DNA of 29,895 bases, taken from a virus. The notes under the pieces are model-generated. The model searched no databases and had not been told where the DNA came from. It saw only the letters and a list, made by a program, of their open reading frames with translations. Location: the IMG/VR virus record IMGVR_UViG_3300030450_003318, positions 1 to 29,895 of that record; one strand, 5' to 3'. This document shows positions 11,143 through 28,976 of the stretch, piece after piece; the first letter of the stretch is position 1, and every line of letters begins with the position of its first letter. Position numbers and translations under genes: made by a program.

Positions 11143-11144
11143 TA

Positions 11145-11723
11145 ATGGAAAAAATTAAAATATCAAAGCTAAAAAAGAGCCCTAGTAACCCTAGATATAT
11201 TAGTGAATCAAAATTTAACCAACTAAAGAAAAGCATTAAAGAATTTCCTGAAATGTTAAAGCTACGCCCTCTAGTAGTAGATAAGGATAATATAGTGCTA
11301 GGTGGAAATATGAGATTATCAGCCCTTAAAGATTTAGGAATAAAAGAAACTTATGTAGTAAAAGCAGAGGATTTAACAGATAAGCAAAAAGAGGAGTTTG
11401 TTATTAAGGATAATATAGGTTTTGGTAGTTGGGATTGGGATATACTAGCTAATAACTTTGATGGAGTTAATCTAGGAGATTGGGGTCTTGATGTATGGCA
11501 GCCAGAAAAAGAGCCTGACTACTCTATACTAGATGACGAGCCAATAGATAGTAGTGTTGAGGACATGAGGAGTAATGTAAGAAAGGCTGTACTAGTGGAT
11601 TTTAACCTAGAGGACTACGATACAGCTTACTCTCTAATAAAACACTTTAGAGATAAAAAGGAATATGTAGGGGGAATAATAATAGAACACTTAACTAATC
11701 TAAAGAACAATGAAAACAATTAA
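11145..11723 (+). CDS. ParB/Srx-domain (ParB N-terminal-like) protein
   Basis: The N-terminal 75 residues form a ParB-like domain: ISKLKKSPSNPRYI, FNQLKKSIKEF, then LRPLVVDKDNIVLGGNMRLS (GGNMR at 53-57, the nucleotide-binding GxxR) and ALKDLGI. The rest (residues 80-192) has DKQKEEFVIKDNIGFGSWDW and DILANNF, which usually precedes or accompanies a DNA methyltransferase in phages. Here no methyltransferase follows; the next gene is a candidate dioxygenase overlapping by 14 nt. Phage ParB-like proteins of this type are linked to DNA modification or nicking. A role in DNA modification is inferred from neighbours. Confidence 0.8.
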   Translation: MEKIKISKLKKSPSNPRYISESKFNQLKKSIKEFPEMLKLRPLVVDKDNIVLGGNMRLSALKDLGIKETYVVKAEDLTDKQKEEFVIKDNIGFGSWDWDILANNFDGVNLGDWGLDVWQPEKEPDYSILDDEPIDSSVEDMRSNVRKAVLVDFNLEDYDTAYSLIKHFRDKKEYVGGIIIEHLTNLKNNENN

Positions 11724-12471: not shown

Positions 12472-12485
12472 ATAAAATTAACAAA

Positions 12486-12875
12486 ATGAGCAAAAAAGAA
12501 CACACACTAAAGAAGGAAACATTATTAAAGTCGCTAGAGGGAGCTATGGGAATAGTATCTACAGCCTGTGCTACTAGTGGTATTAGTAGAAGTAGCTACT
12601 ACAAGTGGTATAAAGAAGATGATGAGTTTAGAGCTAAAGTAGACGAAATAGATAATGTAAAATTGGACTTTGTAGAGAGTCAGCTATTTAAAAATATATC
12701 AGATAAGAAAGAGAAAAGTATAATATTCTACCTTCAACATAGAGGTCACAAGAGGGGGTATATACAAAAGCAGAATATAAATCTGACCTCTAATGAAGAC
12801 GATATTAATAAAATAGAAATTGAAATCATTAAATCTAAAGGGGACAGTAGTACTAGAGAAAAACCTCAAGGCTAA
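12486..12875 (+). CDS. terS: Terminase small subunit
   Basis: The 129-residue protein has an N-terminal helix-turn-helix (GIVSTACATSGISRSSYYKW, residues about 22-41; recognition helix SRSSYYKW), then helical DDEFRAKVDEIDNVKLDFVE, SQLFKNISDKKEKSIIFYLQ, and HRGHKRGY. This order (HTH, oligomerisation helices, FYLQxRGxxRGY) is typical of small terminase subunits, which bind packaging sites on the phage DNA. It lies directly before the large terminase, overlapping its start by 56 nt, and does not show any ATPase motif. Confidence 0.85.
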   Translation: MSKKEHTLKKETLLKSLEGAMGIVSTACATSGISRSSYYKWYKEDDEFRAKVDEIDNVKLDFVESQLFKNISDKKEKSIIFYLQHRGHKRGYIQKQNINLTSNEDDINKIEIEIIKSKGDSSTREKPQG

Positions 12876-13989
12876 CACTAGAATAGTAGTTAATCAAGGG
12901 GGTACTAGGTCTAGTAAAACCTACTCACTAGCTCAATTAATAGTATTAAGAGCTTTACAGAGTACAGGTAAGATATATACTATATGTAGAAAAACTCTAC
13001 CCTCTCTAAAAGGGACTTCCTATAGGGACTTTCTAGAAATACTAGAGAGCCTTAATCTATATGACCCTAATAAACATAATAAGTCAGAGCTTACCTATAA
13101 GCTCAATAATAACCTAATAGAGTTTATTAGTATTGATATGAGCCAGAAGATACGAGGGCGTAAAAGGAATGTGCTGTGGCTTAATGAGGCAAATGAGTTT
13201 ACTCAAGAGGATTGGATTCAATTATCATTAAGAACTACAGAGAACATCTATTTAGATTTTAACCCTTCAGACCCTTATAGCTGGATATATGATAATGTTA
13301 TTAGTAGAGATGATTGTACCTTTATTAAATCCACCTATTTAGATAACCCCTTTTTACCCCCTGATACTATTAGAGAAATAGAAAGGTTAAGAGAGCTAGA
13401 TAGTAACTATTGGAAAATATACGGACTAGGAGATATAGCCCAGCCTACAGAAACTATATTTAGGCAATTTAACCTATGTAACTCTATACCTAGTGAAGCC
13501 TCTCTAGTAGCGGTAGGTATGGACTTTGGCTATAGTAATGACCCTACAGCTATAGTAGAAGTACACAAACTAAATGACGAGCTCTATATAAACGAACTAC
13601 TATACAGCAAAGGTCTTACTAATCAGGATATAGCAGAGAAGCTAAAAGAGCTTAATGTTTCTACTAGGACAGAAATTATATACGATTCAGCAGAGCCTAA
13701 ATCAGGGGAGGAGTTAAGGAGGTTAGGTTATCTAATGTACCCATCTAAAAAAGGGGCTGACTCTATTAATATGGGAATAGATATATTAAGAAGGTATAAG
13801 ATAAATATTACCAAATCTAGTACTAATACTATTAATGAGTTTAAATTCTACAAGTGGCTAGTAGATAAGAATGGTTATGTTATAAATAAGCCTGCTACTA
13901 ATCAAGCAGACCACCTGTTAGACGCTATTAGGTATGTAGCTCTAAATAAGTTAGTTACTAACTATACAGGTAAATACTATATATTATGA
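12820..13989 (+). CDS. terL: Terminase large subunit (packaging ATPase/nuclease)
   Basis: The 389-residue protein has the Walker A variant GGTRSSKT (27-34), a Walker B-like NVLWLNEANEF, and the RNase H-like nuclease acidic residues in VAVGMDFGYSNDPTA, IIYDSAEPKSGEEL and ADHLLDAIRYV. It pumps DNA into proheads and cuts concatemers. The only possible start is TTG at 12820, immediately after an in-frame stop at 12814, inside terS; the next residues (SLNLKGTVVLEKN, then TRIVVNQGG) are the expected N-terminus. The ATP-binding loop is unusually near the N-terminus, as in other Bacteroidetes phage terminases. The stop overlaps the first late promoter-like motif. Confidence 0.95.
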   Translation: MKSLNLKGTVVLEKNLKANTRIVVNQGGTRSSKTYSLAQLIVLRALQSTGKIYTICRKTLPSLKGTSYRDFLEILESLNLYDPNKHNKSELTYKLNNNLIEFISIDMSQKIRGRKRNVLWLNEANEFTQEDWIQLSLRTTENIYLDFNPSDPYSWIYDNVISRDDCTFIKSTYLDNPFLPPDTIREIERLRELDSNYWKIYGLGDIAQPTETIFRQFNLCNSIPSEASLVAVGMDFGYSNDPTAIVEVHKLNDELYINELLYSKGLTNQDIAEKLKELNVSTRTEIIYDSAEPKSGEELRRLGYLMYPSKKGADSINMGIDILRRYKINITKSSTNTINEFKFYKWLVDKNGYVINKPATNQADHLLDAIRYVALNKLVTNYTGKYYIL

Positions 13990-14015
13990 ACAAAATACTA
14001 ATAATTATATTTATA
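13985..14015 (+). promoter_or_regulatory. Late promoter-like motif, copy 1
   Basis: Element 1 tatgaacaaa (13985-13994) and element 2 tatatttata (14006-14015) are separated by 11 nt. Three other copies with identical spacing lie at 22959, 23799 and 26174, all on the + strand just upstream of late genes. It ends only 4 nt before the ATG at 14020, so if element 2 is the -10 box the mRNA would be nearly leaderless. It does not match the usual Bacteroidetes sigma consensus (TTG / TAnnTTTG). Confidence 0.65.
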
Positions 14016-14019
14016 TAAA

Positions 14020-14646
14020 ATGGGATACGAGGAAATAAATGTTAATATTCCTACTAGCTGGAGTGATATAACAATAGGAATGTATCAGGACTTTGTAAAA
14101 ATACAGAAAACAAAGTACAGTAAAGAGGAGGAAAAGGCTATAGATTTGGTCTGTAAGATGACTAAACTAGAGGCAGAAAAGCTCTCTAGGTTTAAATACA
14201 AGGACTTAAAATACCTAGTAGATAAACTAAAAAAGCTAATGGACTCCGAAATAGATAGCGAAACTCTAGTAAAGAAAGTGGAGTTTAATAATACTAAATA
14301 TGGTCTAATACCTAACTTTAGTAATATTAGTTTAGGAGAGTTTGTTGATATAGAGAATAACTGTAAGGACTCTTACTCTAATCTACACAAGATTATGAGC
14401 GTTATGTATAGACCAATAGTAAAGGAAAAAGGAGATAGGTATAGTATAGAGGAGTATAACCCTGATGAGTATAAAGAGGACTTGTTTAAGGATTTTCCTA
14501 TAGCAGTATCAGTGAGTGCATTGAGTTTTTTTTTTCGTTTAGGGAAAATACTCAAGCTAGCTTTGCTCAAATATTCGGAGAAGGAAGTGACGAAGAAGAT
14601 AGCAAGGCTCAAACGATTAGTAAAAAATGGGGGTGGTATAGCATAG
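14020..14646 (+). CDS. Tail assembly chaperone, unshifted form
   Basis: The 208-residue product starts with INVNIPTSWSDITIGMYQDF and continues through KAIDLVCKMTKLEAEKLSRF, YGLIPNFSNISLGEFVDIEN and LHKIMSVMYRPIV. This is the pattern of tail assembly chaperones (gpG-like) found before tail genes in Bacteroidetes phages. At 14526-14535 there is a run of ten T. In this frame the last 37 codons after it (RLGKILKLALL...GGGIA) use codons rare elsewhere here (CTC, TCG, ACG, CGA). The -1 frame after the run encodes a plausible continuation. The protein would keep the tape measure soluble before tube assembly. Confidence 0.75.
   Translation: MGYEEINVNIPTSWSDITIGMYQDFVKIQKTKYSKEEEKAIDLVCKMTKLEAEKLSRFKYKDLKYLVDKLKKLMDSEIDSETLVKKVEFNNTKYGLIPNFSNISLGEFVDIENNCKDSYSNLHKIMSVMYRPIVKEKGDRYSIEEYNPDEYKEDLFKDFPIAVSVSALSFFFRLGKILKLALLKYSEKEVTKKIARLKRLVKNGGGIA
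14526..14535 (+). promoter_or_regulatory. Probable -1 frameshift site (ten-T run)
   Basis: Ten consecutive T residues contain the slippery heptamer T TTT TTT in the correct register (T14526, codons 14527-14532). A -1 shift leads into a stop-free frame of 82 codons ending at 14783. Frameshifting at this position in the tail chaperone gene is the rule in long-tailed phages (lambda G/GT). A missing T in a homopolymer run (eleven rather than ten) would give the same picture as an artefact. Confidence 0.6.
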
Positions 14647-14783
14647 TATTCCACCTCTGTAATGAAAATATTTTAAATGTAGAGGAGGTAACTAAATTAG
14701 AGTTATATCTAGTGTTAACATATCTTTGCTACAAGCAGGATTTGGACTCCGCTACTAAAAACAATTATAATAAATACAAATGA
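14535..14783 (+). CDS. Tail assembly chaperone, -1 frame extension (GT-like part)
   Basis: This frame has no ATG, GTG or TTG near its beginning, so it can only be translated by a shift from the upstream gene. It encodes SFRENTQASFAQIFGEGSDE, EDSKAQTISKKWGWYSIVFH, LCNENILNVEEVTKLELYLV and LTYLCYKQDLDSATKNNYNK. KKWGWYxxIxxL...EVTKLxLxxxLxxLxYxKxxxD is a motif I recognise from tail assembly proteins of Bacteroidetes phages. Its TGA overlaps the ATG of the next gene (ATGA at 14780). Codon use is like the rest of the genome. The fused product would be about 253 residues. Confidence 0.7.
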   Translation, partial: SFRENTQASFAQIFGEGSDEEDSKAQTISKKWGWYSIVFHLCNENILNVEEVTKLELYLVLTYLCYKQDLDSATKNNYNKYK

Positions 14784-15292
14784 TAACATATAAAAATATA
14801 GTAGATGATTTTAATAGTATTGCTACTAACCATTATCAAATCAACTCTTTTCATAATGGTTTCCTTGATGAGGTAGATATAGATAAAATGAATACTGGAA
14901 ACTTCCCACTATTATATGTAGAGCCTACAGCTAATACAATAGATAGCGGCGTTCTAACCTATTCTTTTAATATATATATACTAGATATACTAAAGGAGGA
15001 TTTGAGTAATAGAGAGGAGGTTTGGTCTAATACACTACAGATAATACAAGATATAGTAGCTGAGGTAAAACAGAATTTATCCCTACAAACATCAGGCGGA
15101 GATAGTGGTAAGAAATTCAGTTACTTTAGTGACGAGGTAGTATTAGAGTTACCTATTACTACAGAGCCTATTACAGCTAGATTTGCTAATATACTAACAG
15201 GCTGGACTTCAAATATATCCCTACAAGTAAACAATACTAATAACCTTTGTGACGCTCCTATAGAGCCTAGCGACGAAACTACAGGAACATAA
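14780..15292 (+). CDS. Neck/tail completion protein (tail terminator-like)
   Basis: The 170-residue protein contains HYQINSFHNGFLDEVDIDKM, FPLLYVEPTANTID, YSFNIYILDILKEDLSNREE, a central helix VWSNTLQIIQDIVAEVKQNL and then FANILTGWTSNISLQV. The succession INSFxxGxxxDI...FPLLYVEP...FNIxIxDIxK...LQIxQDxVA...GWTxNIxLxV is that of head-tail completion or tail terminator proteins in Bacteroidetes phages. It starts at the stop of the shifted tail chaperone (ATGA) and ends overlapping the next gene (TAATG). The role at the head-tail interface is inferred from this pattern and position. Confidence 0.65.
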   Translation: MITYKNIVDDFNSIATNHYQINSFHNGFLDEVDIDKMNTGNFPLLYVEPTANTIDSGVLTYSFNIYILDILKEDLSNREEVWSNTLQIIQDIVAEVKQNLSLQTSGGDSGKKFSYFSDEVVLELPITTEPITARFANILTGWTSNISLQVNNTNNLCDAPIEPSDETTGT

Positions 15293-15903
15293 TGAGGCTA
15301 CAAATGAGAAACCCTAAATCAGGTAGGTATTCAAGAGTACCCGCAAAGAACACTTTAAAAGCGTTTGACAGCTTTGGAGCTAGTTTAGTTAAACGGGGGA
15401 AATCTATCCTTAAACGGTACAAAAAGGTAGCTTCAGGTACATTAATTGACAGCTATCATTATAAGATGATACCTAAAAAAGACGGTATGGAGTTACAATT
15501 TGGATTTGGTGAAGCTAGTAGTTATTGGAGATTTGTAGATGAAGGGGTAAAAGGAGTAGGAGGTCAGATAGGTAGCGGGAGCTCTAGAGGCACAAATAGC
15601 CCCTTTAGTTTTAAGTATGACAATCCTGGGGGTAAACTAGTAGACGCTTTAGATAGCTGGATAAGATATAAGAATATTCCACTAAAGGAAGGTATGACGC
15701 AAACAGGTTTAGCTTTTGCAATAGGTTATAGTATTAAGCGTAGAGGGTTAGAGAGGACAATGTTCTTTACTAGACCACTAGAAGCTCTATATCAAAAGGC
15801 TCAAAAAAGAGTAGCTAAAGCTTACGCTGATGACTTCCAAAATCTACTAGATAAAATGGATACAGTAGTAGCAACTTTAAAATCAGATATATCAAAAATG
15901 TAA
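15292..15903 (+). CDS. HK97 gp10-like neck protein
   Basis: The 203-residue protein is basic. It shows the order of HK97 gp10-like proteins: a helix FDSFGASLVKRGKSILKRYK, a short beta part ASGTLIDSYHYKM, then LQFGFGEASSYWRFVDEGVK, GVGGQIGSG, and a C-terminal helix with AIGYSIKRRGLERTMFFTRP followed by LEALYQKAQKRVAKAYADDF. The YWRFVDEGVKG segment is typical. The start at 15292 overlaps the upstream stop (TAATG); ATG 15304 is an alternative. It would close the tail or the head-tail joint. Confidence 0.7.
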   Translation: MRLQMRNPKSGRYSRVPAKNTLKAFDSFGASLVKRGKSILKRYKKVASGTLIDSYHYKMIPKKDGMELQFGFGEASSYWRFVDEGVKGVGGQIGSGSSRGTNSPFSFKYDNPGGKLVDALDSWIRYKNIPLKEGMTQTGLAFAIGYSIKRRGLERTMFFTRPLEALYQKAQKRVAKAYADDFQNLLDKMDTVVATLKSDISKM

Positions 15904-15907
15904 TAAT

Positions 15908-17368
15908 ATGGCAACATCAATAACACAAAAACCAAATCAATTAGCAGCTTCAAATTCCCCTATGGTATTTGTAGTATCAGAAAGTGCTTCAGCTACTTAT
16001 GGAGGTTTTAAGTTTAGGTATATACTAAAAATAGAAATAAACGGAACACTAGAGGCTGTAATAAAAACACACAAAAACGGGGCTAATGTTGGTATTTTTG
16101 ATATTAGTAAAATTGTAAACAGCTATATTGAAACTCAATTATCTAATGCTAACAGTACTAGTAACCCTATACACTCTATAGGCGTTCAGCAGGGAGCAAA
16201 GCCTTTTAGTCAAAATACAAACCAATGTGGAAAGGTTGAGGTTAAGGTTTTTTATGAGGTGGCTACTAGTGCTACTACAGCTCCAGAGGAATCTTCAGAA
16301 CAAGCTTCAGCTATCTTTTACGCAATACCTGCAACAACACCCTTTACTAAAACCGCTACTAATAAAGGTGGTTTAGATGTTAGTGGTGGGAATTACCCTT
16401 TAGCGTGGTTTCTTAACAGTACAACTACAGAAGATAAACATAGCTTTTTTACTAATGCCCCTAATGTTCAGTTTGTTAGAGGGGGTAATGCAAGTGCTGA
16501 TAATACAGATTCACTAACAGTATGTTTTAAACAAGAGGGGTTAATTACTGACGGGGTAGATATAGATTATATGTTTGTAGAGTACTTTAATAGCTCTGGC
16601 GTTGCTATAGCTGGTACAGTAGGGTCGGCTACTTGGTACGCAATACCAAATAGTAACACTAGTGGAGGGGCTACTACAGCAGAATCTAATACAGTAGGAG
16701 AGGCTATTTTATATTTTGGCTGTGGTACTTATAATTTACAATCTCAAACAACAGCTAGTGTAATAGATAGCGAGGGGGCTACTGTTAACGGGTCAAATGC
16801 TAGACCTAGTAATCATACTGATTGGGCTTACTATACAATACACGGAAGTACAGACGCTAATAAAGCAAATAGATGTACTAAACACTATTACTTTTATAGA
16901 TATGGAACGAATGCAAGTGTAGACGATAGACACCAAAGTTGTACTAGAAATAATAATATTAGGTTAGCGTGGATAAATAGATTAGGGTCTTGGGACTATA
17001 TGAACTTTAGAGGCAAATCTGTAGAGTCAGTAGATATTAAAAGAACTGAAATGTCTAATGTTCCTGGCTCTTGGAATAGTAGTACTTTTGATTATAACTC
17101 TTGGGAGGGAGGTAGGTCAGGATTGTTTACAGACGCTAAAAGAAAATTAACTATTAATAGTGATTGGTTAAATGATAATGAGGCTATATGGCTAGAGGAG
17201 TTATTTACCTCTAATACAGTACAAATAATAGATGATGATGAAACTATAGTTTATCCTGTTTTGGTAACAGATAAATCCTATACTAAAAAAAATAGCTTAA
17301 ATAACAAAATAAAAGTACAGTACTCTATTAAACTAGAGTACGCTAATAATATAAGAACTAATAATTAA
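15908..17368 (+). CDS. Large tail protein, baseplate/distal-tail-like
   Basis: The 486-residue protein is Ser/Thr/Asn-rich with no signal peptide. The N-terminal 60 residues (PNQLAASNSPMVFVVSESAS, then FRYILKIEIN) look like a beta-sandwich, as does the middle. The C-terminal 150 residues include NIRLAWINRLGSWDYMNFRG, ESVDIKRTEMSNV, and WLNDNEAIWLEELFTSNTVQ. The W(I/L)NRxGxWDYxxF motif is common in large tail proteins of Bacteroidetes phages and usually precedes a second large tail protein, as here. Its TAA overlaps the next ATG (TAATG). I place it in the distal tail; a finer assignment is not possible. Confidence 0.65.
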   Translation: MATSITQKPNQLAASNSPMVFVVSESASATYGGFKFRYILKIEINGTLEAVIKTHKNGANVGIFDISKIVNSYIETQLSNANSTSNPIHSIGVQQGAKPFSQNTNQCGKVEVKVFYEVATSATTAPEESSEQASAIFYAIPATTPFTKTATNKGGLDVSGGNYPLAWFLNSTTTEDKHSFFTNAPNVQFVRGGNASADNTDSLTVCFKQEGLITDGVDIDYMFVEYFNSSGVAIAGTVGSATWYAIPNSNTSGGATTAESNTVGEAILYFGCGTYNLQSQTTASVIDSEGATVNGSNARPSNHTDWAYYTIHGSTDANKANRCTKHYYFYRYGTNASVDDRHQSCTRNNNIRLAWINRLGSWDYMNFRGKSVESVDIKRTEMSNVPGSWNSSTFDYNSWEGGRSGLFTDAKRKLTINSDWLNDNEAIWLEELFTSNTVQIIDDDETIVYPVLVTDKSYTKKNSLNNKIKVQYSIKLEYANNIRTNN

Positions 17369-20300
17369 TGAGTGTAAGATTAGTCGCATATAGAAGGAGT
17401 AGCACAGCTGCTGACGCTAGTGATTTAACTCAATATGAGTTAGACCTACAAAAAGAGCCTAATGTAGTAACAAATTATAAGTGGCTAGATTTAAAAGAGC
17501 CAGATAAGAGAAAATCTAGTTTTAGCCAAACTATTAAAATTCCCTTTACAAATAGAAATAATCAATTTTTTGAGAATTGGTTTGATGTTAATTTAGAAAC
17601 ACTAGTATTTAATGTTAGTAGAAAATTTAACGCTATACTATATGTAAATAGCGTACCTCAATTACAAGGATATGTGCAGCTAAAATCTATCTATCTAAAC
17701 GCTAGATTATACGAGTGTGTAATCTTTGGTCAAACAGCGGATTTCTTTACTGATATAAAAACCAAAAAGCTAAAGGACGCCTTTACTATTGAAGATGAGG
17801 ACAATCCAGGTACTTATTTAGATGACCCTACCTATGACCATATTTTAAGTTTAGAGAATATTGTTGATAGTTGGAGTGCTCCAGGTATAGAAACAGTAGG
17901 GGGTAGTAATACTACTGATATTATGTACCCTATAATAGATTACGGGCATACTACAAATCCTTATAGTAGTGCTATGTTTTGGAAGCCTGAAGATATAACA
18001 GACGCTATTGATGAGCTAGGTGACCAAAACTATTTACAGGGTATGAATTGGTTTGGAATAGTTAGAGGTACTGATTTAAAGCCAGCTATGCGTATTCAAA
18101 CGCTATTTCACTTAATAGCTAAAAAGGCGGGCTATCAAATCAAGAGTGCTTTTATGGGAATAAATGACACAGCAGGAACACCTATTACAGATACTAGTTA
18201 TTTTAGTAGGTTATTTATGACCTGTGAATCAGGGTCAGGAAGGGTTAAGAGTTTATGGAATATATCAACAGGGTCAGAAGCCCCTTTTGTGGGATTTGAG
18301 GCTAATATGAGTGCCCCTGTAACTCATAATACTCATATTACTCCTGACGGGGAGGGGGGTATATTTGGTCAAGCGTATGGAGTTTATTCAGTAGGAAATG
18401 GACTTTATGTAAATAATGAAGTATACGACCCTAATAGTTTATACTCTATTAGTAGTGGTCAGTTTGATTATGGTTATGATATAGAGTTTAACTTTGATTT
18501 ACCTGTAGTAACAATACCTTTATCAGAGGACGGTAGTATGTTACCTTCAGGAAATATGTCAGTAAAAACTACTATTAATCTTGATGTACCTAGTACCTAT
18601 AACTATAATAGTGGGGCTGACACAGGGTCTTTAGATAATTTAGAATTTAGAATAGTATGGAAAGAATGTGCTTTTGGAGGTGACGCTCCTTTTAATGCGT
18701 ATGATATGACAGCTGTAGCTGACGGATATTTTGTACTAACACCAGGTAATAATCAAACTATTACTTGTACTGTTCCATTACCTTGTGTTCCTGGGACTCA
18801 CTACGGTTTACAGTTAGTAGTATGTAGTACTCAAGGGTTAGCTGCAAGCCCTATTAAATCCGCTAATATTACAGTAAATAGCTGTACTATAGAAACACTA
18901 CAAACAGATGAGCTTGGTTTTATGGAAGGGGCTGAAAATGGAGAGGTACAGATGTATCATAATGTACCCGATATTACACAATCTGACTTTGTAAAAGATT
19001 TAGTAAATAGATTTAATCTAATAATAAAATCAGATGAAGGAAATGAAAGGTTATTACTAATAGAGCCTTACCAAGATTATATAGACGCGGGCTCTACTAA
19101 CTACTGGACGGACAAACTAGACACCTCTAAAGAAATGGTTATAAAATCTACTAATGAGCTACAATCAAGGTTTTTAGAGTTTAAGGATTTAGATGATACT
19201 GATTTTTTTAATAAGAGATATAAAGATATATATAATGTAACTTATGGCTCTTATAGAGAAATGCGACATAATGATTTCGCTAAAAAAGAATGGAAGAACT
19301 TTAGTGTATTTTCTCCTTTTATTGCTCAAGGTATAAACTACTGGGGTTTAGACGGTATTAGTGGGAATCTACCAGAGGCGAATGTAGCTATAGCGTATCT
19401 ATTTAGGGCAGAGCTAGGAGGGGAGGCGGAAGTAGCTACAGATTTAAAACCTAAACTATTTTACTATAGTGGAGTGCCTATTACTATATCAGGTAGTAAC
19501 CCTAATAGTGGTAACGCCTATGATTTTAAAATATGGTCTAGTAAGATAATTTTAGGGGATAGCTCTGAAGTATACGATACTAATAATAAATTTCCTATAT
19601 GTACTCAGTTTAATATAAATACAGTTACAGCTGTAACATCTTCTACTAAAACTTTTCACTGGCATTGGTATAACCCCTCTTTTAATAGTGGATTTACCTC
19701 TAATTATTTTGGAAATGAATATACTGAAAAGGGGCTGTTTAATGATTTTTGGAGGCAATATATAAATGAGATTTATAGTAGTGAGGCTAGGATAATGGAG
19801 TGTTATCTAAAGCTAAACGAGGAAGATATTAACAGCTTTGCGGGGGCAGGATTTAAAGACACCTATTATATTAAAAATACACTATGGAGAGTTATTAGTG
19901 TGGACGGACACCTAGTAGGAGGAAACAAATCAACTAAAGTAAAATTACTAAAGGTTATAGAAAAGCTAACTAATGATTGCGGGAATACTCCTACAGTTAC
20001 TGATTCAGGTTTAATAACTTGGGTAGATAGTGCTACTGGGGCATCAGTAGCTAAAGTTACTAATGCGTGCTGTGAGGGCTCATCTCCATATTGGACTTTT
20101 GTTCAAACTAACGCCACTACAGGAGAGGGGGATTGTTACGCTACAGGAATTGAAGATAATGATAGTGTTTCTCCTGCTTTTATGCCTACACTACCTGGAG
20201 GGGCTTCACAAGTATTAGGAGGAGGTAACGCTGGTAGTATAGCTCTAGGAATGCCTACCTCTCAAAATAACCTATTTATAACTAACTCTAATGGTATAGC

Positions 20301-20790
20301 TCAAACTACAACTTTTTATTTAGAGGCAACTACTTTAGATGATGTTAATAGATGTTATATAAATTTCAACGGGGTACAATCTCAAGTTTTTAGTATAAAA
20401 CAAAATACTATGAATTTTATGAAAGTAACAGTTTTAGGTAGTGTTGTAGCAGGAACTAATAATACTAAATGCGGTCAGTATGAGTATGATACTATTTTAC
20501 TGAATAGAGGGGCAGGGAGCGAATATATTGGAACAGCTGGAGGGAATTTAAGGTCTACTAGTAAAGACGCTGCTTTTAGTAACCCGACTTTAGACATAAC
20601 CAATTTTAATAAAGTGAGGTGGAGTCCTACTATAGTAGGAGGGGCAAATGAAAAGATACATTGGATTTTTAAAGTAGAAGCTCTTATACAAAAGACAGGA
20701 AACCCTGACTATAATTTTCCTACTAGAGCAATATTCCAAAACGGAAGCAATATAATATTACAAGATTTAAACCAGTTATTATGGAACTAG
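17368..20790 (+). CDS. Largest tail protein, probable tail tip/hub
   Basis: At 1,140 residues this is the largest protein. Its N-terminus (YELDLQKEPNVVTNYKWLDL, KSSFSQTIKIPFTNRNNQFF, ENWFDV) and AILYVNSVPQLQGYVQLKSI YLN.. resemble baseplate or tail-hub proteins of Bacteroidetes phages. The middle (residues about 540-860) contains DFVKDLVNRFNLIIKSDEGN and LIEPYQDYIDAG, TDKLDTSKEMVIKSTNELQS, then ARIMECYLKLNEEDINSFAG. The C-terminal third is Gly/Asn/Thr-rich with a Cys pair (ACCEG) and looks like a beta-rich, receptor- or fibre-like extension. It follows the 486-residue protein by overlap, upstream of the tape measure. Confidence 0.65.
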   Translation: MSVRLVAYRRSSTAADASDLTQYELDLQKEPNVVTNYKWLDLKEPDKRKSSFSQTIKIPFTNRNNQFFENWFDVNLETLVFNVSRKFNAILYVNSVPQLQGYVQLKSIYLNARLYECVIFGQTADFFTDIKTKKLKDAFTIEDEDNPGTYLDDPTYDHILSLENIVDSWSAPGIETVGGSNTTDIMYPIIDYGHTTNPYSSAMFWKPEDITDAIDELGDQNYLQGMNWFGIVRGTDLKPAMRIQTLFHLIAKKAGYQIKSAFMGINDTAGTPITDTSYFSRLFMTCESGSGRVKSLWNISTGSEAPFVGFEANMSAPVTHNTHITPDGEGGIFGQAYGVYSVGNGLYVNNEVYDPNSLYSISSGQFDYGYDIEFNFDLPVVTIPLSEDGSMLPSGNMSVKTTINLDVPSTYNYNSGADTGSLDNLEFRIVWKECAFGGDAPFNAYDMTAVADGYFVLTPGNNQTITCTVPLPCVPGTHYGLQLVVCSTQGLAASPIKSANITVNSCTIETLQTDELGFMEGAENGEVQMYHNVPDITQSDFVKDLVNRFNLIIKSDEGNERLLLIEPYQDYIDAGSTNYWTDKLDTSKEMVIKSTNELQSRFLEFKDLDDTDFFNKRYKDIYNVTYGSYREMRHNDFAKKEWKNFSVFSPFIAQGINYWGLDGISGNLPEANVAIAYLFRAELGGEAEVATDLKPKLFYYSGVPITISGSNPNSGNAYDFKIWSSKIILGDSSEVYDTNNKFPICTQFNINTVTAVTSSTKTFHWHWYNPSFNSGFTSNYFGNEYTEKGLFNDFWRQYINEIYSSEARIMECYLKLNEEDINSFAGAGFKDTYYIKNTLWRVISVDGHLVGGNKSTKVKLLKVIEKLTNDCGNTPTVTDSGLITWVDSATGASVAKVTNACCEGSSPYWTFVQTNATTGEGDCYATGIEDNDSVSPAFMPTLPGGASQVLGGGNAGSIALGMPTSQNNLFITNSNGIAQTTTFYLEATTLDDVNRCYINFNGVQSQVFSIKQNTMNFMKVTVLGSVVAGTNNTKCGQYEYDTILLNRGAGSEYIGTAGGNLRSTSKDAAFSNPTLDITNFNKVRWSPTIVGGANEKIHWIFKVEALIQKTGNPDYNFPTRAIFQNGSNIILQDLNQLLWN

Positions 20791-20966
20791 AATATAGAAT
20801 AAAAATACTAGGATTTTTTGTTACAACAGTATTATCAGAGGTAACAGTAAAGGAGTTTACTGACCCTGAGTGGGACTTTATTTATGGCTCTCAAGAGTAT
20901 AATAATGACTTAAAATTAACACTAAAACAATTTAAAAGGATATGGAAAAGAAGGGCTTTAAAATAA
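20781..20966 (+). CDS. Small protein between tail tip and tape measure, 61 aa
   Basis: The 61-residue frame overlaps the previous gene by 10 nt and the tape measure by 25 nt. It begins MELEYRIKILGFFVTTVLSE and ends LTLKQFKRIWKRRALK; WDFIYGSQEYNNDLK is in the middle. It is mixed charge with a basic end. It is not recognised. The tight overlaps on both sides support it being translated; a tail assembly accessory role is a guess from position. Confidence 0.6.
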   Translation: MELEYRIKILGFFVTTVLSEVTVKEFTDPEWDFIYGSQEYNNDLKLTLKQFKRIWKRRALK

Positions 20967-22963
20967 CAGCTGATGTAAAGGGGGCTGAAAAGGGTTTAAA
21001 GAAAACCTCTAAAGGTCTTAAAGATGTAGGTAAATCTAGTAAGATTTCCTCTAAAGGATTTAAGATGATGGGGACAGCTATGAAGGCTATGGGTATAGGT
21101 TTGATTATAGCTTTAGTAGCGAAGTTTACTGAAATGTTAATGAAAAATCAAAAGGTTCAAGATTTAGTAGCTAGAGTAATGGACACTTTAGGTAAGATTC
21201 TTAATGTTGTAATTGATATAATGTTTGAAGCTTTAAAGGTAATAGATAAGTTAACTTTTGGAATGCTTAATTTATCAGGAGAAACAGACGGGGCTACTAA
21301 ATCCCTTCAAACTCAAAGAAATGAATATGAGTTACTAGAGGCGGGTATGGAGAAAATCAAACTCCAATATGAAACTCAAATTGAAAAACTACGACAGATA
21401 AGAGATAACGAGAATCTCACAATGGAGGAAAGGATTGCGGCAAGTGACGCAATAGCAAAAACCCTAGATGAGCAATACGCAACAGAAAGAGAAAGGATTT
21501 TAGAGATGATTCAGGTTAAGAAAAATCTTTTAAAAGCTGATAGGCATAATGTAGAATTAAAGAAAGAGTTACTAGCGGTTGAAACTATGCTAGCTGAATT
21601 AGATAACAGAATAACAAGTCAAAGGTCTGAACAATTACAATCCTTTAATTCACTAAAAAGCTCACAGATTAAGTTATCTAGTAGCTCTAGTAAAGCTATT
21701 AAAGAAGAAGTAAAGAGTGTTGAGGAAATGATAAAAGCTTTAGATAAATATGGTGGTAAGATAGTTTTAACAGAAGAAGAAAAGCACAAACAAGCCCTAG
21801 TTAATATGGAAGAAGAATATAGGGACAATGTTAAGATTATAAGGGATAATGCGAGTAATGATGAAAAAAAGAAGATGAAAACCGAGTGGGATAGAAAATT
21901 AAAAGAAGCTAATAAAGTATTAAATAATCAAAAAGAAACATTACAATATTGGAGAAAGCAATTATCAAGTGCTAGAACTGAAGCTGAAAAAGAAGAAGCT
22001 AGAGAAAATATAAAGGCTTGGAAAAACACCATTAAAGCACAGACAAAACATAGAAATACATTAAGAGAAAATCAAGAAAAAGCATTAAGAAATAAAAGTG
22101 CTTTTAGTGAAAAGGAAGTAGAATTAACTACAGCTTATAATAAAAAGGTAGAACTTATAATAAAAGAACATAACGAAAAAGTAAAAAAACAAGAGGAAGA
22201 AAAACAGAAAAAGATACAAGATATTAAGGATAACGCTATGAAAATAGCTAGAGAAGACCAGCTATCTGATTACGCTAAAGAGTTTTTAGCTATGGAGGAG
22301 AAGTACGCTAAAATACTAGAACAGGAGGAGCTAACCGCTACTGAAATTACAGCTATAAAAGATAGGCAAAAAAGAGATGAGGAGGCTTTAGATGAAAAAT
22401 ATGAAGAAATAAAAGCTCAAAAAAGACAAGAGAGAAACGCTCAAATGATAGACGCAGCTGTATCTGTTGCAAATTCTCTAGTAGCCCTATCCAGAGCGTC
22501 TGCTAATAAAGAGTTAAGTGATTTAGAAAAGAAATTTAAAAAGGGTGAAATTACTGAAAAGCAATATAATAAAAGAGTAAATCAAATAGAAAAAGAACAG
22601 GCTAAAAAAGAAAAGGCGGCTGCTCTAATGCAAATTGGAGTAGATACCGCTAGAGGTATTTCTGCGGCTGTAGCAGCGGGGTCAGGTATTCCGTTTCCAG
22701 GTAATTTAGCAGCAATAGCTTCAGGGGTAGCTGCGGTACTAGCAGGGATAGCACAAGCAGCAGGTATACTAGGGGCACAGCCTGAGGGTGATGTTGAATC
22801 TGATGAGGATAGTGATGTTGGAGGAGAGGGTAATACTCCTCTTGTTCCTACATTTGGAGCAATAGGGGCAGAAGCTCCTCCTATTCAGGCTTATGTAGTA
22901 GAGAGTAATGTTAGTTCCGCACAAGCTCTAGCAGATGATATATCTTTACAGGCTACGCTATAA
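20942..22963 (+). CDS. Tape measure protein
   Basis: The 673-residue protein begins with a Lys/Gly-rich region (ITADVKGAEKGLKKTSKGLK, DVGKSSKISSKGFKMMG), a hydrophobic segment (residues about 45-66, TAMKAMGIGLIIALVAKFTE), then a very long coiled-coil region (about 110-545). It closes with an Ala/Gly-rich hydrophobic part (ISAAVAAGSGIPFPGNLAAI, ASGVAAVLAGIAQAAGILG) and an acidic tail. This is the typical build of a tail tape measure protein, which sets tail length. At about 1.5 angstrom per residue this would give a tail of roughly 100 nm (inference). The start overlaps the 61-residue gene; a promoter-like motif lies just before its end. Confidence 0.9.
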   Translation: MEKKGFKITADVKGAEKGLKKTSKGLKDVGKSSKISSKGFKMMGTAMKAMGIGLIIALVAKFTEMLMKNQKVQDLVARVMDTLGKILNVVIDIMFEALKVIDKLTFGMLNLSGETDGATKSLQTQRNEYELLEAGMEKIKLQYETQIEKLRQIRDNENLTMEERIAASDAIAKTLDEQYATERERILEMIQVKKNLLKADRHNVELKKELLAVETMLAELDNRITSQRSEQLQSFNSLKSSQIKLSSSSSKAIKEEVKSVEEMIKALDKYGGKIVLTEEEKHKQALVNMEEEYRDNVKIIRDNASNDEKKKMKTEWDRKLKEANKVLNNQKETLQYWRKQLSSARTEAEKEEARENIKAWKNTIKAQTKHRNTLRENQEKALRNKSAFSEKEVELTTAYNKKVELIIKEHNEKVKKQEEEKQKKIQDIKDNAMKIAREDQLSDYAKEFLAMEEKYAKILEQEELTATEITAIKDRQKRDEEALDEKYEEIKAQKRQERNAQMIDAAVSVANSLVALSRASANKELSDLEKKFKKGEITEKQYNKRVNQIEKEQAKKEKAAALMQIGVDTARGISAAVAAGSGIPFPGNLAAIASGVAAVLAGIAQAAGILGAQPEGDVESDEDSDVGGEGNTPLVPTFGAIGAEAPPIQAYVVESNVSSAQALADDISLQATL

Positions 22964-22989
22964 ACAAATAATAACTATTTATATTTATT
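22959..22989 (+). promoter_or_regulatory. Late promoter-like motif, copy 2
   Basis: Element 1 tataaacaaa (22959-22968, one base different from copy 1) and element 2 tatatttatt (22980-22989), separated by 11 nt as in the other three copies. It begins inside the end of the tape measure gene and finishes 3 nt before the ATG of the protease gene at 22993. Confidence 0.6.
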
Positions 22990-22992
22990 AGT

Positions 22993-23793
22993 ATGGGGAA
23001 GAAAAAATACAAAAAAGTAGAATTAATAATAGATGAGGAATCAGAGAAGTACGGAGTAGAGGCAATTTCTCTAGTAGAATTCCCAGCTATAGAAGAAAAC
23101 TGGGTTTTCTTTTCAAAAGATAATTTTTTAAGTTTAGCAAAACTAGACGAAGAACAAAAAACTCTAGTAGGAGCTGTATTAATACCTAATAAGGAAATAC
23201 CTAGATTTGACCAAGAAAATAACGAGGAATTTGTAGTTTACTTTAGTGAGGAAACTATTAAACAAGCTCAAGAGTTATTTATGTCAAGCTTAAGAAACAA
23301 TAACGCTACCTATGAACACAAAGTACCTGTAGAAGGTATTACAGTAGTAGAGAGCTGGATAAAAGAAGATAAAAAGTTTGACAAATCTAGTGCTTTTGGT
23401 TTTAATAAATTACCTCTAGGAACTTGGTTTGTAAAAATGAAAGTCAATAACGAGGAAATATGGAAATCAGTAAAAGACGGTAGCGTAAAAGGGTTTAGTA
23501 TAGAGGGGTACTTTACTGATAAATTAATAGAAGCCTCTAAACCTAAAGATATAATAGACCTAGCAGAAAATTGTATAGATTGCGAAGATGAAAAACTACT
23601 AGAAGATATTAGAAGTATAATAGCAGAAGATGAAGCTCTAGCTTTAGAGGAGCAACACTCTTTTGTTATTAGTAAAGCCCTAGCTAAGTACCCTTGGAAA
23701 CAATGTATTAGTGATATGGTCAAAGAATATGGTAGCAAAGAAACTGCTGCAAAAGTATGTTCAGCTATTAAAAACAAGACAGTAAATAGATAG
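22993..23793 (+). CDS. Prohead serine protease, XkdF-like
   Basis: The 266-residue protein has the XkdF-like protease core: ELIIDEESEKYGVEAISLVE FP.. at the start, LVGAVLIPNKEIPR (59-71), TYEHKVPVEGITVVESWI (107-123; H109) and SVKGFSIEGYF (164-174; S169). His and Ser are the expected catalytic residues. A C-terminal unit (about 226-264, LAKYPWKQCISDMVKEYGSK then ETAAKVCSAIK) with two Cys is a short helical domain found on several phage proteins. It should process the scaffold and capsid. Preceded by promoter-like motif copy 2, and followed by a separate motif before the scaffold gene. Confidence 0.8.
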   Translation: MGKKKYKKVELIIDEESEKYGVEAISLVEFPAIEENWVFFSKDNFLSLAKLDEEQKTLVGAVLIPNKEIPRFDQENNEEFVVYFSEETIKQAQELFMSSLRNNNATYEHKVPVEGITVVESWIKEDKKFDKSSAFGFNKLPLGTWFVKMKVNNEEIWKSVKDGSVKGFSIEGYFTDKLIEASKPKDIIDLAENCIDCEDEKLLEDIRSIIAEDEALALEEQHSFVISKALAKYPWKQCISDMVKEYGSKETAAKVCSAIKNKTVNR

Positions 23794-23798
23794 AGGGC

Positions 23799-23829
23799 TG
23801 TGAACAAAATTTAATTATTAATATTTATA
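23799..23829 (+). promoter_or_regulatory. Late promoter-like motif, copy 3
   Basis: Element 1 tgtgaacaaa (23799-23808) and element 2 aatatttata (23820-23829), 11 nt apart. It falls in the 52-nt gap between the protease and scaffold genes, with 16 nt left before the scaffold ATG at 23846. Confidence 0.65.
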
Positions 23830-23845
23830 AAAAAAGAATAACAAT

Positions 23846-24469
23846 ATGTCAAATACACTAGAAAAAATCAAAACTCTTTTATCTAAAGGGGGTATTAAAA
23901 AAACTAATCTATACGCAGAAGCTGTACTAGATGATGGTAGAATATTAGCTACAGAAGATGAAAAATTTGATGTAGGGTCAGAAGTGTTTGTAGTAGGAGA
24001 TGACGGGGAAACTGAAAAAGTAGCAGAGGGAGAATACACACTAGAGGACGGAACTAAAATATCTATAGACGCAGAAAGTAAAGTTGCTAGTTTAGGAGAG
24101 GAAGAAGCGGAAACTGAAGAAGAAGAACCTAAAGAGGAAGAAATGGAAATGCCTGAAGAATGGATAAAAACCTACGAGGAAATGAAAAAAAGAATCGAGG
24201 CATTAGAGAAAGCTGTTTATGGCGAAGATACTAATGTTGAGGAAATGGAAAAAGAGGAAAAGGTAGAAATGTCTAGAGATATGGTAACTAGTTTAATAGA
24301 GGAGGTTGAGGAGTTAAAATCTCAAATAGTAAAACTAGAGAAACAGCCAGGAGCGGAGGGTTTTAAACACAATCCAGAGGCTACTAATAGAAAAATAGAA
24401 AAAGTTAATTTAGGTAAACTTTCTACTCAAGAGAGAGTTGCTTACTTTATGAGTAATAATAATAACTAA
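23846..24469 (+). CDS. Probable capsid scaffold protein
   Basis: The 207-residue protein lies between the protease and the major capsid protein, where scaffolds belong. The first 80 residues form a small beta domain (AEAVLDDGRILATEDEKFDV, then GSEVFVVGDDGE, GEYTLEDGTKISIDAESKVA). Next is an extremely acidic Glu-rich stretch (residues about 85-110), then coiled-coil helices (EEWIKTYEEMKKRIEALEKA, MVTSLIEEVEELKSQIVKLE). The order beta-domain, acidic linker and coiled coil, ending QERVAYFMSNNNN, is that of scaffold proteins in Bacteroidetes phages, which template prohead assembly and are removed by the protease. Confidence 0.75.
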   Translation: MSNTLEKIKTLLSKGGIKKTNLYAEAVLDDGRILATEDEKFDVGSEVFVVGDDGETEKVAEGEYTLEDGTKISIDAESKVASLGEEEAETEEEEPKEEEMEMPEEWIKTYEEMKKRIEALEKAVYGEDTNVEEMEKEEKVEMSRDMVTSLIEEVEELKSQIVKLEKQPGAEGFKHNPEATNRKIEKVNLGKLSTQERVAYFMSNNNN

Positions 24470-24480
24470 TATATAACAAA

Positions 24481-25410
24481 ATGAGTAAACTAAAAAAATA
24501 TGAATTTGCTGATACAGTAACCTCAAATTATGCAGGAGAAGCTGCGGCAGGTTATATTTCGGCGGCTCTTTTATCAGGAACAACACTAGCTGAAAACAAC
24601 ATTACATTTTTAAATAATGTAAAGTATAAAGCTAATTTAAGAAAAATAACTATTGCAGGAACAGCTGGTAATTTAATGGCTGACGCTACTTGTGACTTTA
24701 CAGATTCAGGTACTCTTACTTATGCAGAAAGAGTATTACAACCAAGAGATTTTGATGTAAATATGGCTCTTTGTAAGCAAGATTATCTATCCTCTTGGGA
24801 AGGAGCTAATATGACAGCGGGTCTAAATGGTACATTACCTACAGATTTTGGTAATTACATTATTGCACAAACTGCTGCTAGAGTTTCACAAGAAATAGAG
24901 AAATCTATTTGGGACGGAACAGATGGAGATAATGGTAGTTTTGATGGATTTAGAAAATTATGTCTAGCTGATGGTGATGTAGTAGATGTTGCTGGAGCTG
25001 CTGCTCTAACTGCTGCTAATATTGTATCTAAATTAGAAGATGTAATGGACGCTATACCTACAGCTGTATTTGGTAAAGAAGATTTAAGAATATTTTTACC
25101 TACTTCAGCTTGGAGATTTTACATTCAGTCACAAGCTACTTTAGGGTATGGAAACATATATAATATGAATGATGACTGGAAATATACTTTCAATGGAATT
25201 AGAATAGCACACGCTCCAGGTTTAGCTAATGACACTATGATAGCGGGTAGAACTTCTAATATGTTCTTCGGAAGTGATGGGTCTAGTAGTGAGGTTAGAT
25301 TATTAGATATGGCTGATAAAGATGGCTCTGATAATATTAGAGTTATAATGCGGTTTACTGCGGGAGTTAATTACGCTTTTGGTAGTGATATGGTATTATA
25401 CGCAGGGTAA
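24481..25410 (+). CDS. Major capsid protein (HK97-fold)
   Basis: The 309-residue protein follows the scaffold by 11 nt. It shows typical capsid features: an N-terminal helical part (YAGEAAAGYISAALLSGTTL AEN), a beta region LMADATCDFTDSGTLTYAER VLQPRDFDVNMALCKQDYLS, long helix ARVSQEIEKSIWDGTDG, and RIFLPTSAWRFYIQSQATLG followed by FNGIRIAHAPGLANDTMIAG and ending VMRFTAGVNYAFGSDMVLYA. These match the HK97 fold order (N-arm, E-loop, P-domain helix, A-domain). About 300 residues is normal. A strong stem-loop terminator follows 15 nt after its stop, as expected for the most expressed virion gene. Confidence 0.85.
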   Translation: MSKLKKYEFADTVTSNYAGEAAAGYISAALLSGTTLAENNITFLNNVKYKANLRKITIAGTAGNLMADATCDFTDSGTLTYAERVLQPRDFDVNMALCKQDYLSSWEGANMTAGLNGTLPTDFGNYIIAQTAARVSQEIEKSIWDGTDGDNGSFDGFRKLCLADGDVVDVAGAAALTAANIVSKLEDVMDAIPTAVFGKEDLRIFLPTSAWRFYIQSQATLGYGNIYNMNDDWKYTFNGIRIAHAPGLANDTMIAGRTSNMFFGSDGSSSEVRLLDMADKDGSDNIRVIMRFTAGVNYAFGSDMVLYAG

Positions 25411-25425
25411 TAGTAAATGATTAAT

Positions 25426-25450
25426 GGGGAGTGAAATACCTCCCCTTTTT
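25426..25450 (+). terminator. Intrinsic terminator after major capsid gene
   Basis: Stem ggggag (25426-25431) with ctcccc (25440-25445), loop of 8 nt, followed by five T (25446-25450). It stands 15 nt after the capsid stop. Partial termination would raise capsid over tail tube levels. Confidence 0.8.
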
Positions 25451-25474
25451 AGAAACAATTAAAAAATATAGATT

Positions 25475-26086
25475 ATGGCGTGCACGCTTACAAAAGGGCT
25501 AACAGTAGATTGCAAAGACCAAATAGGAGGGCTAAAGGCGGTATTTTTCGCCTCTACATATTCTCCTGAAATCCGTAGTGCTGCTACCTTTAATGGTACT
25601 GATGTTCTACAAATGGATACAGCGGGTTTTACAGGCTGGACAGCTTATGGGACTCCTACAGGGTCAACAGTAACAGTATATAAATATACTTTAAGACCTA
25701 ATTTGTCCTCAATGACAGTAAATATAAATAGCGACCCAGCAACGGGCACTACTTGGTTTGAACAAACTTTATCTTTACAGCTACAAAAATTAACTGTAGC
25801 TCAAACAAATGAGTTAAAGTTAATTTCTTATAATAGAGCACAGGTATTTGTTCAAGATGTTAATGATAATGTATTCCTACTAGGAATGGATAATGGTTGT
25901 GATGTTTCAGGTGGTACAGCTGTTACAGGGGCAGCTAAATCTGATATGACGGGTTTTACTCTAGAGTTAAGAGCAGAGGAAAAAGACCCTATGATTTGGA
26001 TAAAACCTACCTCTGGAGGTGGAACTGATTATCCATTTGACCAATTAGGGGACGCAGATGCAGATTTAACTATAGTAGCTTCTTAA
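25475..26086 (+). CDS. Major tail protein (tail tube-like)
   Basis: The 203-residue protein begins MACTLTKGLTVDCKDQIGGL KAVFF.., the start of a tail tube protein type I recognise from Bacteroidetes phages. It is beta-rich through VTVYKYTLRPNLSSMTVNIN, WFEQTLSLQLQKLT, LISYNRAQVFVQDVNDNVFL LGM and FTLELRAEEKDPMIWIKP. The start context (TAGATTATGG) and terminators on both sides show it can be made as a separate unit. Length agrees with tube proteins of siphoviruses. A tail tube without a sheath gene supports a siphovirus. Confidence 0.75.
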   Translation: MACTLTKGLTVDCKDQIGGLKAVFFASTYSPEIRSAATFNGTDVLQMDTAGFTGWTAYGTPTGSTVTVYKYTLRPNLSSMTVNINSDPATGTTWFEQTLSLQLQKLTVAQTNELKLISYNRAQVFVQDVNDNVFLLGMDNGCDVSGGTAVTGAAKSDMTGFTLELRAEEKDPMIWIKPTSGGGTDYPFDQLGDADADLTIVAS

Positions 26087-26113
26087 TAAAAATCGCTACT
26101 CAATACTAAAAAG

Positions 26114-26144
26114 AGGGGTTTTCCTATACGGTAACCCCTTTTTT
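26114..26144 (+). terminator. Intrinsic terminator after major tail protein gene
   Basis: Stem aggggtt (26114-26120) with aacccct (26133-26139), 12-nt loop, preceded by A run and followed by a T run (to 26144), so it could work in both directions. It separates the capsid/tube unit from the portal operon. Confidence 0.85.
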
Positions 26145-26173
26145 ATTAAGAAAACTTTACAAATACTACAATT

Positions 26174-26204
26174 TGTGAACAATAAATAGATTTTTATATT
26201 TATA
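26174..26204 (+). promoter_or_regulatory. Late promoter-like motif, copy 4
   Basis: Element 1 tgtgaacaat (26174-26183) and element 2 tatatttata (26195-26204), 11 nt apart. It is placed right after a terminator and 13 nt before the first gene of the portal operon, the position expected of a promoter. Confidence 0.7.
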
Positions 26205-26217
26205 GTAAAGTAATATT

Positions 26218-26400
26218 ATGGCTTGGAAAGTTAAAAAAGAATACGAGGGGAAAACAGTACCTAATTTTAGAATACCTCTAGGGGATTTATCTCAAAAGTT
26301 TATTAAAGGATTGTCAGAAAGTGTTAGAAATGGATATTTTTACGAGGATAAACCTAAAAGAAAAACAAAGGAGGTAGAATGGATAACAGATAAGGACTAA
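26218..26400 (+). CDS. Small hypothetical protein, 60 aa
   Basis: The first gene after late promoter-like copy 4: 60 residues, MAWKVKKEYEGKTVPNFRIP, then LGDLSQKFIKGLSESVRNGY and FYEDKPKRKTKEVEWITDKD. Charged, no membrane helix. The N-terminal 25 residues look like a short beta-rich unit and are similar in style to small proteins encoded between tail tube and portal in related phages. Its stop overlaps the next ATG (TAATG). Confidence 0.65.
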   Translation: MAWKVKKEYEGKTVPNFRIPLGDLSQKFIKGLSESVRNGYFYEDKPKRKTKEVEWITDKD

Positions 26401-26540
26401 TGGGAACTAGAGTTGAGTGGATAGAAATAGATGAAGAACAAAAAAAAGAGTTAGATAAAAAGCTTCTAGAGGCTGAAAGTGAAGAAGAAAAAAGCTTATT
26501 GTATAAAGAGTATTGTTGGAAAATATTTAAAAAAGTATAG
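26400..26540 (+). CDS. Small hypothetical protein, 46 aa
   Basis: A 46-codon frame coupled to its neighbours on both sides: ATG 26400 overlaps the previous stop, and its TAG shares a G with the GTG start of the next gene. It reads MGTRVEWIEIDEEQKKELDK, then KLLEAESEEEKSLLYKEYCW and KIFKKV: mostly a charged helix. No family is recognised; overlaps and codon use are the support. Confidence 0.6.
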   Translation: MGTRVEWIEIDEEQKKELDKKLLEAESEEEKSLLYKEYCWKIFKKV

Positions 26541-27130
26541 TGGGAGTATATAATTTGAATCTTGAGGGAACTATGCCTCCTACTGTTTTAGGTGGCACTG
26601 TTATATTTTATGAAAATATTGATAGTTTAGTAAGTATAGCAAATACTAAAAACCTAGTAGCGTTATGTAGAGCAAGAAAAACCAATATAACTAGATTTGC
26701 CTCTTGCTTTCCTTTTGAGGGGACGGGAGATACTGATGACCCTACATATAGCTCAAATTCTAGGTATTGGCAGTTTGCAATAACATTTTTATATGGAAGT
26801 GCGGGAATAGCTGGGGCTTATGATGTGCTAGGTTATAGAGAGAATAGCATAGCAGTTATGCCTTTTATGGACACATTAGACATAGATTTATATTATGCTG
26901 ATTCAAACTCTTATGCAATAGCAGGTTTAACTAAAATAGAGGGAACAAGTATAGTGGTTAATTTAACAGTAGACGAAACATATGTACACAAAGGAGATTT
27001 ACCTATTACTTATTATACAGAATATACAGGAAATGATGTTGATGATGTAATTCCTGGCTCTACTGGAGAGCCTACCTCTGCTGATGAGGAGTTAAATGCA
27101 CAATATGGAACTCAAATTTGGGAAGTTTAA
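26540..27130 (+). CDS. Probable virion structural protein, 196 aa
   Basis: The product starts with GTG at 26540 (overlapping the upstream TAG); ATG 26573 is an alternative but would remove a likely strand. The sequence is beta-rich with no signal peptide: GVYNLNLEGTMPPTVLGGTV, YWQFAITFLYGSAGIAGAYD, then LDIDLYYADSNSYAIAGLTK and IEGTSIVVNLTVDETYVHKG. Gly/Asp/Thr content and lack of catalytic residues suit a virion component. It lies directly before the portal gene. No family is recognised. Confidence 0.6.
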   Translation: MGVYNLNLEGTMPPTVLGGTVIFYENIDSLVSIANTKNLVALCRARKTNITRFASCFPFEGTGDTDDPTYSSNSRYWQFAITFLYGSAGIAGAYDVLGYRENSIAVMPFMDTLDIDLYYADSNSYAIAGLTKIEGTSIVVNLTVDETYVHKGDLPITYYTEYTGNDVDDVIPGSTGEPTSADEELNAQYGTQIWEV

Positions 27131-27133
27131 ATT

Positions 27134-28966: not shown

Positions 28967-28976
28967 ATAAAAAATT

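Follow-up and report, generated by a model that had tools for sequence, protein, structure and literature searches.

In phages T4 (gp55) and SPO1 (gp28, gp33/34) late promoters depend on a phage sigma-like protein that redirects RNA polymerase to the late genes; those of T4 consist of a -10-like box (TATAAATA) alone. In promoters of the extracytoplasmic function (ECF) sigma factors the spacing between AAC and CGT is N16/17. These two trinucleotides are carried by ECF promoters generally (PMC4153023). Little has been described of late transcription in Bacteroidota phages. Here we analyse a 29,895-base uncultivated virus record, IMGVR_UViG_3300030450_003318 (hereafter the window, meaning this whole stretch, with positions counted from its first letter), which belongs to an uncultivated, marine phage group and is a tailed phage by gene content (terminase, portal, head protease and capsid-like genes). 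A bipartite motif stands before four of its late genes, and comparison of sequences makes it probable that these copies (P1–P4) are phage late promoters read by an ECF-like sigma factor that the phage itself encodes, together with a candidate fifth promoter (P0) inside a gene.

Four copies of a bipartite motif precede late genes

An earlier note on this DNA had described four copies of the motif on the + strand, a constant distance of 18 nt from the core to element 2, gaps of 3–16 nt to the genes that follow and, ahead of one copy, a strong terminator. Reading of the sequence bears this out: the AAC of element 1 (-35-like) falls at 13989, 22963, 23803 and 26178, always on the + strand; element 2 (-10-like) begins 17 nt downstream of the A of AAC in all four (18 nt if counted from the preceding G/A) and ends 4, 3, 16 and 13 nt before the ATG in copies 1–4, respectively; and the copy at 26174 lies behind a stable hairpin (Table 1). 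The naming of the gene after copy 1 as a tail chaperone did not hold: 14020-14646 matches only an unknown PHROG.

With the pattern RAACAA-N11-TWATATTTAT, derived from the same four copies and allowed at most one mismatch, the window contains four matches and no others; 0.05 are expected by chance and none of 100 shuffles reaches four. Leave-one-out matrices score the held-out copies at 19.8–25.9 bits, where they are outscored only by the other three copies, and nothing on the - strand scores higher. Since the pattern was made from the sites, a matrix test on the single window is partly circular and weight was therefore placed on relatives. One match, at 1556 in the open reading frame (ORF) 1289-1795, has TACAA in place of AACAA, lies inside coding sequence and was taken as chance; the C-terminus of this ORF (NKIYNIEGKEIYRRKGLYIENGKINFKIK) may be similar to a sorting tail for type IX secretion in Bacteroidetes, a feature that would be unusual in a phage protein.

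The motif is conserved in two variants

Relatives were gathered by scanning with the capsid-like and terminase proteins (about 90 loci), and 22 related records were taken in full length. At a threshold of 12 bits the window matrix gives 136 matches on the late-gene strand of 92 loci versus 5 on the other strand, numbers that include some overlapping loci and some matches inside coding sequence. The bipartite element can also be read pattern-free: it stands directly after the terminase gene, at the place orthologous to P1, in 21 genomes (window included). Matrices built from this sequence (site 1), using the two elements alone, were tested on nine genomes of variant A and 12 of variant B (defined below): in nearly every one the sites before the protease gene, the scaffold-like gene and the portal operon are among the leading non-coding matches, and almost all matches lie on the late-gene strand. 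The recovery of sites 2–4 from site 1 alone is an independent prediction. Across the window and its relatives, the matrix scan that the earlier note had proposed finds good matches almost confined to the heads of late operons.

Variant A has the form GAACAA...TATATTTATA (AACAA, or AACGA in genome G009, with TATATTTA) and variant B the form AAACRA...TATATATA (AACRA with TATATATA); all sites of one genome carry the same -10 variant. AAC is present in the -35 of 36 A sites and 53 B sites, although the search pattern demanded it, and is seen pattern-free in the 21 genomes. CGT occurs in the -10 of neither the window nor these relatives, which have TATATTTA or TATATATA. An outgroup genome (G016) retains TATATTTATA and shows no clear element 1. 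Among B genomes, sites 1 and 4 are mostly AACGA and sites 2 and 3 mostly AACAA: this site-specific difference might tune promoter strength.

The spacer between the elements is 12 nt throughout the 36 A sites and 12 or 13 nt in B sites. Distances from AAC to ATG, on the other hand, are bimodal: 30–31 or 39–43 nt in A (with one exception, 24 nt, from an earlier in-frame ATG) and 31–34 or 40–46 nt in B. Constant spacing of the elements to each other, and not to the start codon, favours a promoter over a ribosome-binding element. At sites 1 and 2 the distance is nearly fixed (30–31 nt in A, 31–34 nt in B), and among sites with a 12-nt spacer, of both variants, position 30 after AAC is invariably A. 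This A may be the transcription start point; if so, mRNA from P2 would be leaderless and that from P1 nearly so, and the near-leaderless transcripts earlier predicted for copies 1 and 2 gain support from the nearly fixed distances.

In B-type genomes an extra copy of the motif stands 40–45 nt before a conserved small gene (~70 aa) upstream of the sigma gene (oriented records G006:27692, G008:7852, G011:22797, G018:792 (= L035:792) and G021:13807); the copy in G018 has the TATATTTA form. Further matches in B genomes, before 'MERRYT', lie inside coding sequence over NKIYN-type codons and were taken as chance.

A candidate reader and its evolutionary history

The ORF at 9899-10429 encodes a protein of 176 aa with sigma regions 2 and 4 only, within the range of about 160–190 aa for this arrangement. 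TIGR02937 (sigma70-ECF) matches 25 of 25 relatives and aligns to residues 3-172 of the window protein over positions 2-163 of the 165 in the model (E 1.1e-6); Pfam Sigma70_r2 is weak in the relatives (best E 0.042, in eight of 25). The AlphaFold2 model (pLDDT 82.8) consists of two helical parts and a low-confidence linker at residues 90-101, and a Foldseek search of a viral library, in which the lowest E-value was 1.4e-8, placed several proteins annotated as sigma factors among its best matches. From sequence and predicted fold we infer that the protein functions like an ECF sigma factor. Named phages and plasmids gave no match, a search of PDB sequences with the family profile returned none, and the genome collection yielded one weak 30% match, with no prophage or host. 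Of the 22 related records 21 contain the gene; the remaining one is a fragment that stops short of where the gene would lie.

The suggestion, already made in the earlier note, that this protein could read the sites is supported by its likeness to ECF factors and by the behaviour of the variants, which track the sigma gene and not the exchanged structural genes. The A/B variant changes once on the sigma tree, at least seven times on the capsid tree and at least six times on that of the gene immediately preceding P4, from which it follows that structural genes have crossed between A and B phages, whereas each phage kept promoters of its resident type. The flanks of P4 are 80–94% identical between A and B genomes, yet each genome keeps its own variant. 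In genome G009, which forms a long branch within the A clade on the sigma tree, the recognition helix is changed and all four sites read AACGA. The capsid-like gene (24481-25410) and its neighbor (25475-26086) have passed repeatedly between A and B phages; there are two diverged capsid types.

A fifth copy inside the sigma-like gene

The earlier count of four copies is confirmed for P1–P4 and falls short by one: a fifth, with a spacer 1 nt longer, lies within the sigma-like ORF (P0; Table 1). Its codons encode the linker that joins sigma region 2 to region 4, a part of low confidence in the model. In A2 relatives the corresponding place reads AACAA-12-TATATTTA; in most B relatives it reads AACAA-12-TATATATT or something close to that. 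Synonymous variation over the P0 codons is 0.004 vs. 0.212 in the rest of the gene among 35 A2 coding sequences (0 of 200,000 random samples as low), and 0.027 vs. 0.241 among 26 B sequences (P 1e-5): in both lineages this is the lowest synonymous variation of the sigma gene. Besides the sigma-like ORF, no ORF of at least 50 aa overlaps P0 in the window. The constraint may nonetheless stem from a cause other than a promoter.

Downstream of P0, the gene at 10413-10781 is a homologue of gp37 of Nonlabens phage P12024L (E 4e-5). Given that P12024L has a late promoter just before gp37, P0 is probably an in-gene promoter feeding the terminase operon. A gene for a Tet/JBP-like 2OG-Fe oxygenase (11710-12471; PF12851, 1.5e-10) adjoins the terminase genes, as does gp26 in P12024L; it is found in only four of 16 large genomes of the window family, and the phage DNA is possibly modified.

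Table 1. Features of the window discussed in the text; promoters, leaders and assignments to promoters are predictions.
Feature	Position	Strand	Details
ECF-like sigma factor, proposed reader	9899..10429	+	TIGR02937, AlphaFold2 model, Foldseek
Candidate promoter P0	10162..10190	+	GAACAA, 13-nt spacer, TATATTTATA; within sigma-like ORF
Genes P0 would serve	10413..13989	+	gp37-like, HNH, ParB-like, Tet/JBP-like, terminase small and large subunits
Putative promoter P1	13988..14015	+	-35-like GAACAA (13988-13993), -10-like TATATTTATA (14006-14015); ATG 14020; predicted leader 0-2 nt
Late operon, tail genes (from P1)	14020..22963	+	
Putative promoter P2	22962..22989	+	AAACAA, -10-like TATATTTATT (22980-22989); ATG 22993; predicted leaderless
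Head maturation protease (from P2)	22993..23793	+	phrog_3017, 3.4e-14
Putative promoter P3	23802..23829	+	GAACAA, -10-like AATATTTATA (23820-23829); ATG 23846
Scaffold-like gene, major-capsid-like protein, next gene (from P3)	23846..26086	+	
Intrinsic terminator upstream of P4	26109..26145	+	hairpin -17 kcal/mol, z -3.4, then T run
Putative promoter P4	26177..26204	+	GAACAA, -10-like TATATTTATA (26195-26204); ATG 26218; behind terminator
Portal operon (from P4)	26218..29895	+	portal phrog_33693, 1.5e-79

A cultured parallel

P12024L has seven sites of the form AAACAA...CGTTAATA (AACAA-N-CGTTAATA) that end 3–4 nt before late-gene ATGs, the genes being gp01, gp05, gp08, gp37, gp42, gp45 and gp46; in leave-one-out scans six of the seven rank top, the seventh having a spacer 1 nt shorter. 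These late sites bear AAC-N16/17-CGT, and only here does the -10 contain CGT. Its gp35 passes the Pfam Sigma70_r2 cut-off, and perfect host-type promoters (TTG-N19-TATATTTG) precede the leftward genes gp53 and gp58. When the collection was scanned with the P12024L pattern, most of the matches were single and looked like chance; on one contig (L264) there are two sites resembling those ahead of gp45 and gp46.

Which factor reads the sites?

On the mechanism we propose, RNA polymerase – presumably the host core – carrying the phage ECF-like sigma factor would be directed to P1–P4, region 4 reading the -35-like AACRA (with its ECF-type AAC) and region 2 the -10-like element (TATATTTATA). Transcripts from P1 and P2 would start at the AUG or 1–2 nt before it and thus be near-leaderless, and those from P3 and P4 would have leaders of about 10–13 nt. 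P4 would restart transcription past the terminator, and P0 would let the sigma factor turn on the terminase operon downstream of its own gene.

Several observations count against a phage sigma factor as the reader. The window protein scores 28.4 bits against TIGR02937, below the curated cut-off of 42.9, and its top Foldseek matches in PDB, mostly sigma factors and many of them ECF, have weak E-values (best 0.013): because the profile match runs end to end but stays under the cut-off, and the structural E-values are weak, the protein is said here to work like an ECF sigma factor and is not filed as a member. An hhalign comparison of its family with P12024L gp35 is not significant (probability 0.5%). 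The VRR-NUC, protease and portal trees likewise show one A/B change, so co-inheritance alone does not prove the sigma-like protein to be the reader; and every one of the 16 large genomes also has a Cro/C1-type helix-turn-helix (HTH) gene (7507-7770 in the window). The last point, and the fact that the variant A -10 is one base (the last) off the host -7 box TAnnTTTG, lend themselves to another explanation, in which the TATATTTA box is recognised by host sigma A and a DNA-binding protein of the phage (e.g. the HTH protein), bound to GAACAA, stands in for the -33 element. The earlier statement that the motif is unlike the Bacteroidetes housekeeping promoter (TTG / TAnnTTTG) is thus only partly right: P1–P4 contain no exact match to it, but TATATTTA shares five of its box's six specified bases. 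Still, reading by host sigma A seems to us unlikely. The TTTG box is broken in variant B (TATATATA) and in P12024L (CGTTAATA), which has canonical TTG-N19-TATATTTG promoters elsewhere; both elements differ genome-coherently between lineages; and the constant spacing, the AAC and, in P12024L, the CGT are in keeping with a reader of the ECF type. No clear host-type TTG/TAnnTTTG promoter is seen in the divergent region of the window (6905-7520), and of the window proteins tested none was recognised as a phage RNA polymerase.

Were a host ECF sigma factor the reader, the variant would not be expected to track the clade of the phage sigma, nor the sigma-like gene to be missing only from a fragmentary record; we regard this as very improbable. 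That the motif is a translation-initiation or RNA-processing element, and no promoter, draws some support from the closeness of the copies to ATGs and from flavobacteria, which lack Shine-Dalgarno sequences and use an A-rich upstream context instead (PMC6847099). It is hardly credible, however, for an element whose parts keep a fixed distance to each other and not to the ATG, which forms no hairpin at P1 and P3, is carried by few genes per genome, and has one copy behind a terminator and another, in-gene, away from any start codon.

The best explanation of these sequences is therefore a set of sigma-dependent phage late promoters whose -35 is ECF-like and whose -10 is derived, one of the copies lying in the gene of their reader. 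With some reserve we also favor a wider proposal: that the gene of an ECF-like sigma factor carries in its linker codons, across two lineages, one of the promoters which this factor reads, despite changes in linker protein and variant; that sigma factor and promoters all switch specificity together within a genome; and that two late operons yield leaderless mRNAs. Sigma-dependent late promoters are known in principle from other phages; this form is new as far as our searches show, a limited search of the literature having turned up no description of promoters of this kind. If the proposal is true, these phages would have their own control system for late genes, testable in the cultured P12024L. 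It would be a compact sigma–promoter pair whose natural variants differ from lineage to lineage in both elements and in the recognition helix, and could serve to map sigma specificity and to express genes orthogonally in flavobacteria. It would also be one of the rare examples of a promoter retained within the gene for the factor that reads it, and a source of leaderless structural-gene mRNAs in a host group where leaderless mRNAs are a minority.

Comparison with known systems

The element spacing of ECF promoters is similar to that of the window family. Promoters of ECF (group IV) factors, for example B. subtilis sigma W/X/M and the F. psychrophilum SM6 class (PMC4153023, PMC9723704), also share the -35 AAC and a small two-domain sigma factor; unlike them, the system proposed here has TATATTTATA or TATATATA in place of CGT, is phage-encoded, stands at structural-gene operons, includes two sites predicted to be near-leaderless and has one copy inside the sigma gene. 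With T4 and SPO1 it has in common a phage sigma-like protein that would send RNA polymerase to late genes; a T4-type late promoter as such was rejected, since TATAAATA occurs only as its reverse complement and faces away from the genes, variant B is without it, and a second element is conserved. From Bacteroidetes sigma A promoters the sites differ in having no conserved TTG, the boxes of variant B and P12024L do not match, and P12024L has separate host-type promoters. A further parallel is P12024L/P12024S (Inhavirus), with the gene order VRR-NUC, sigma, gp37-like, terminase and (in P12024L, the one examined) late sites just before the ATG; in P12024L, unlike the window, the -10 is CGTTAATA and the terminase-operon promoter stands just before gp37, not inside the sigma gene.
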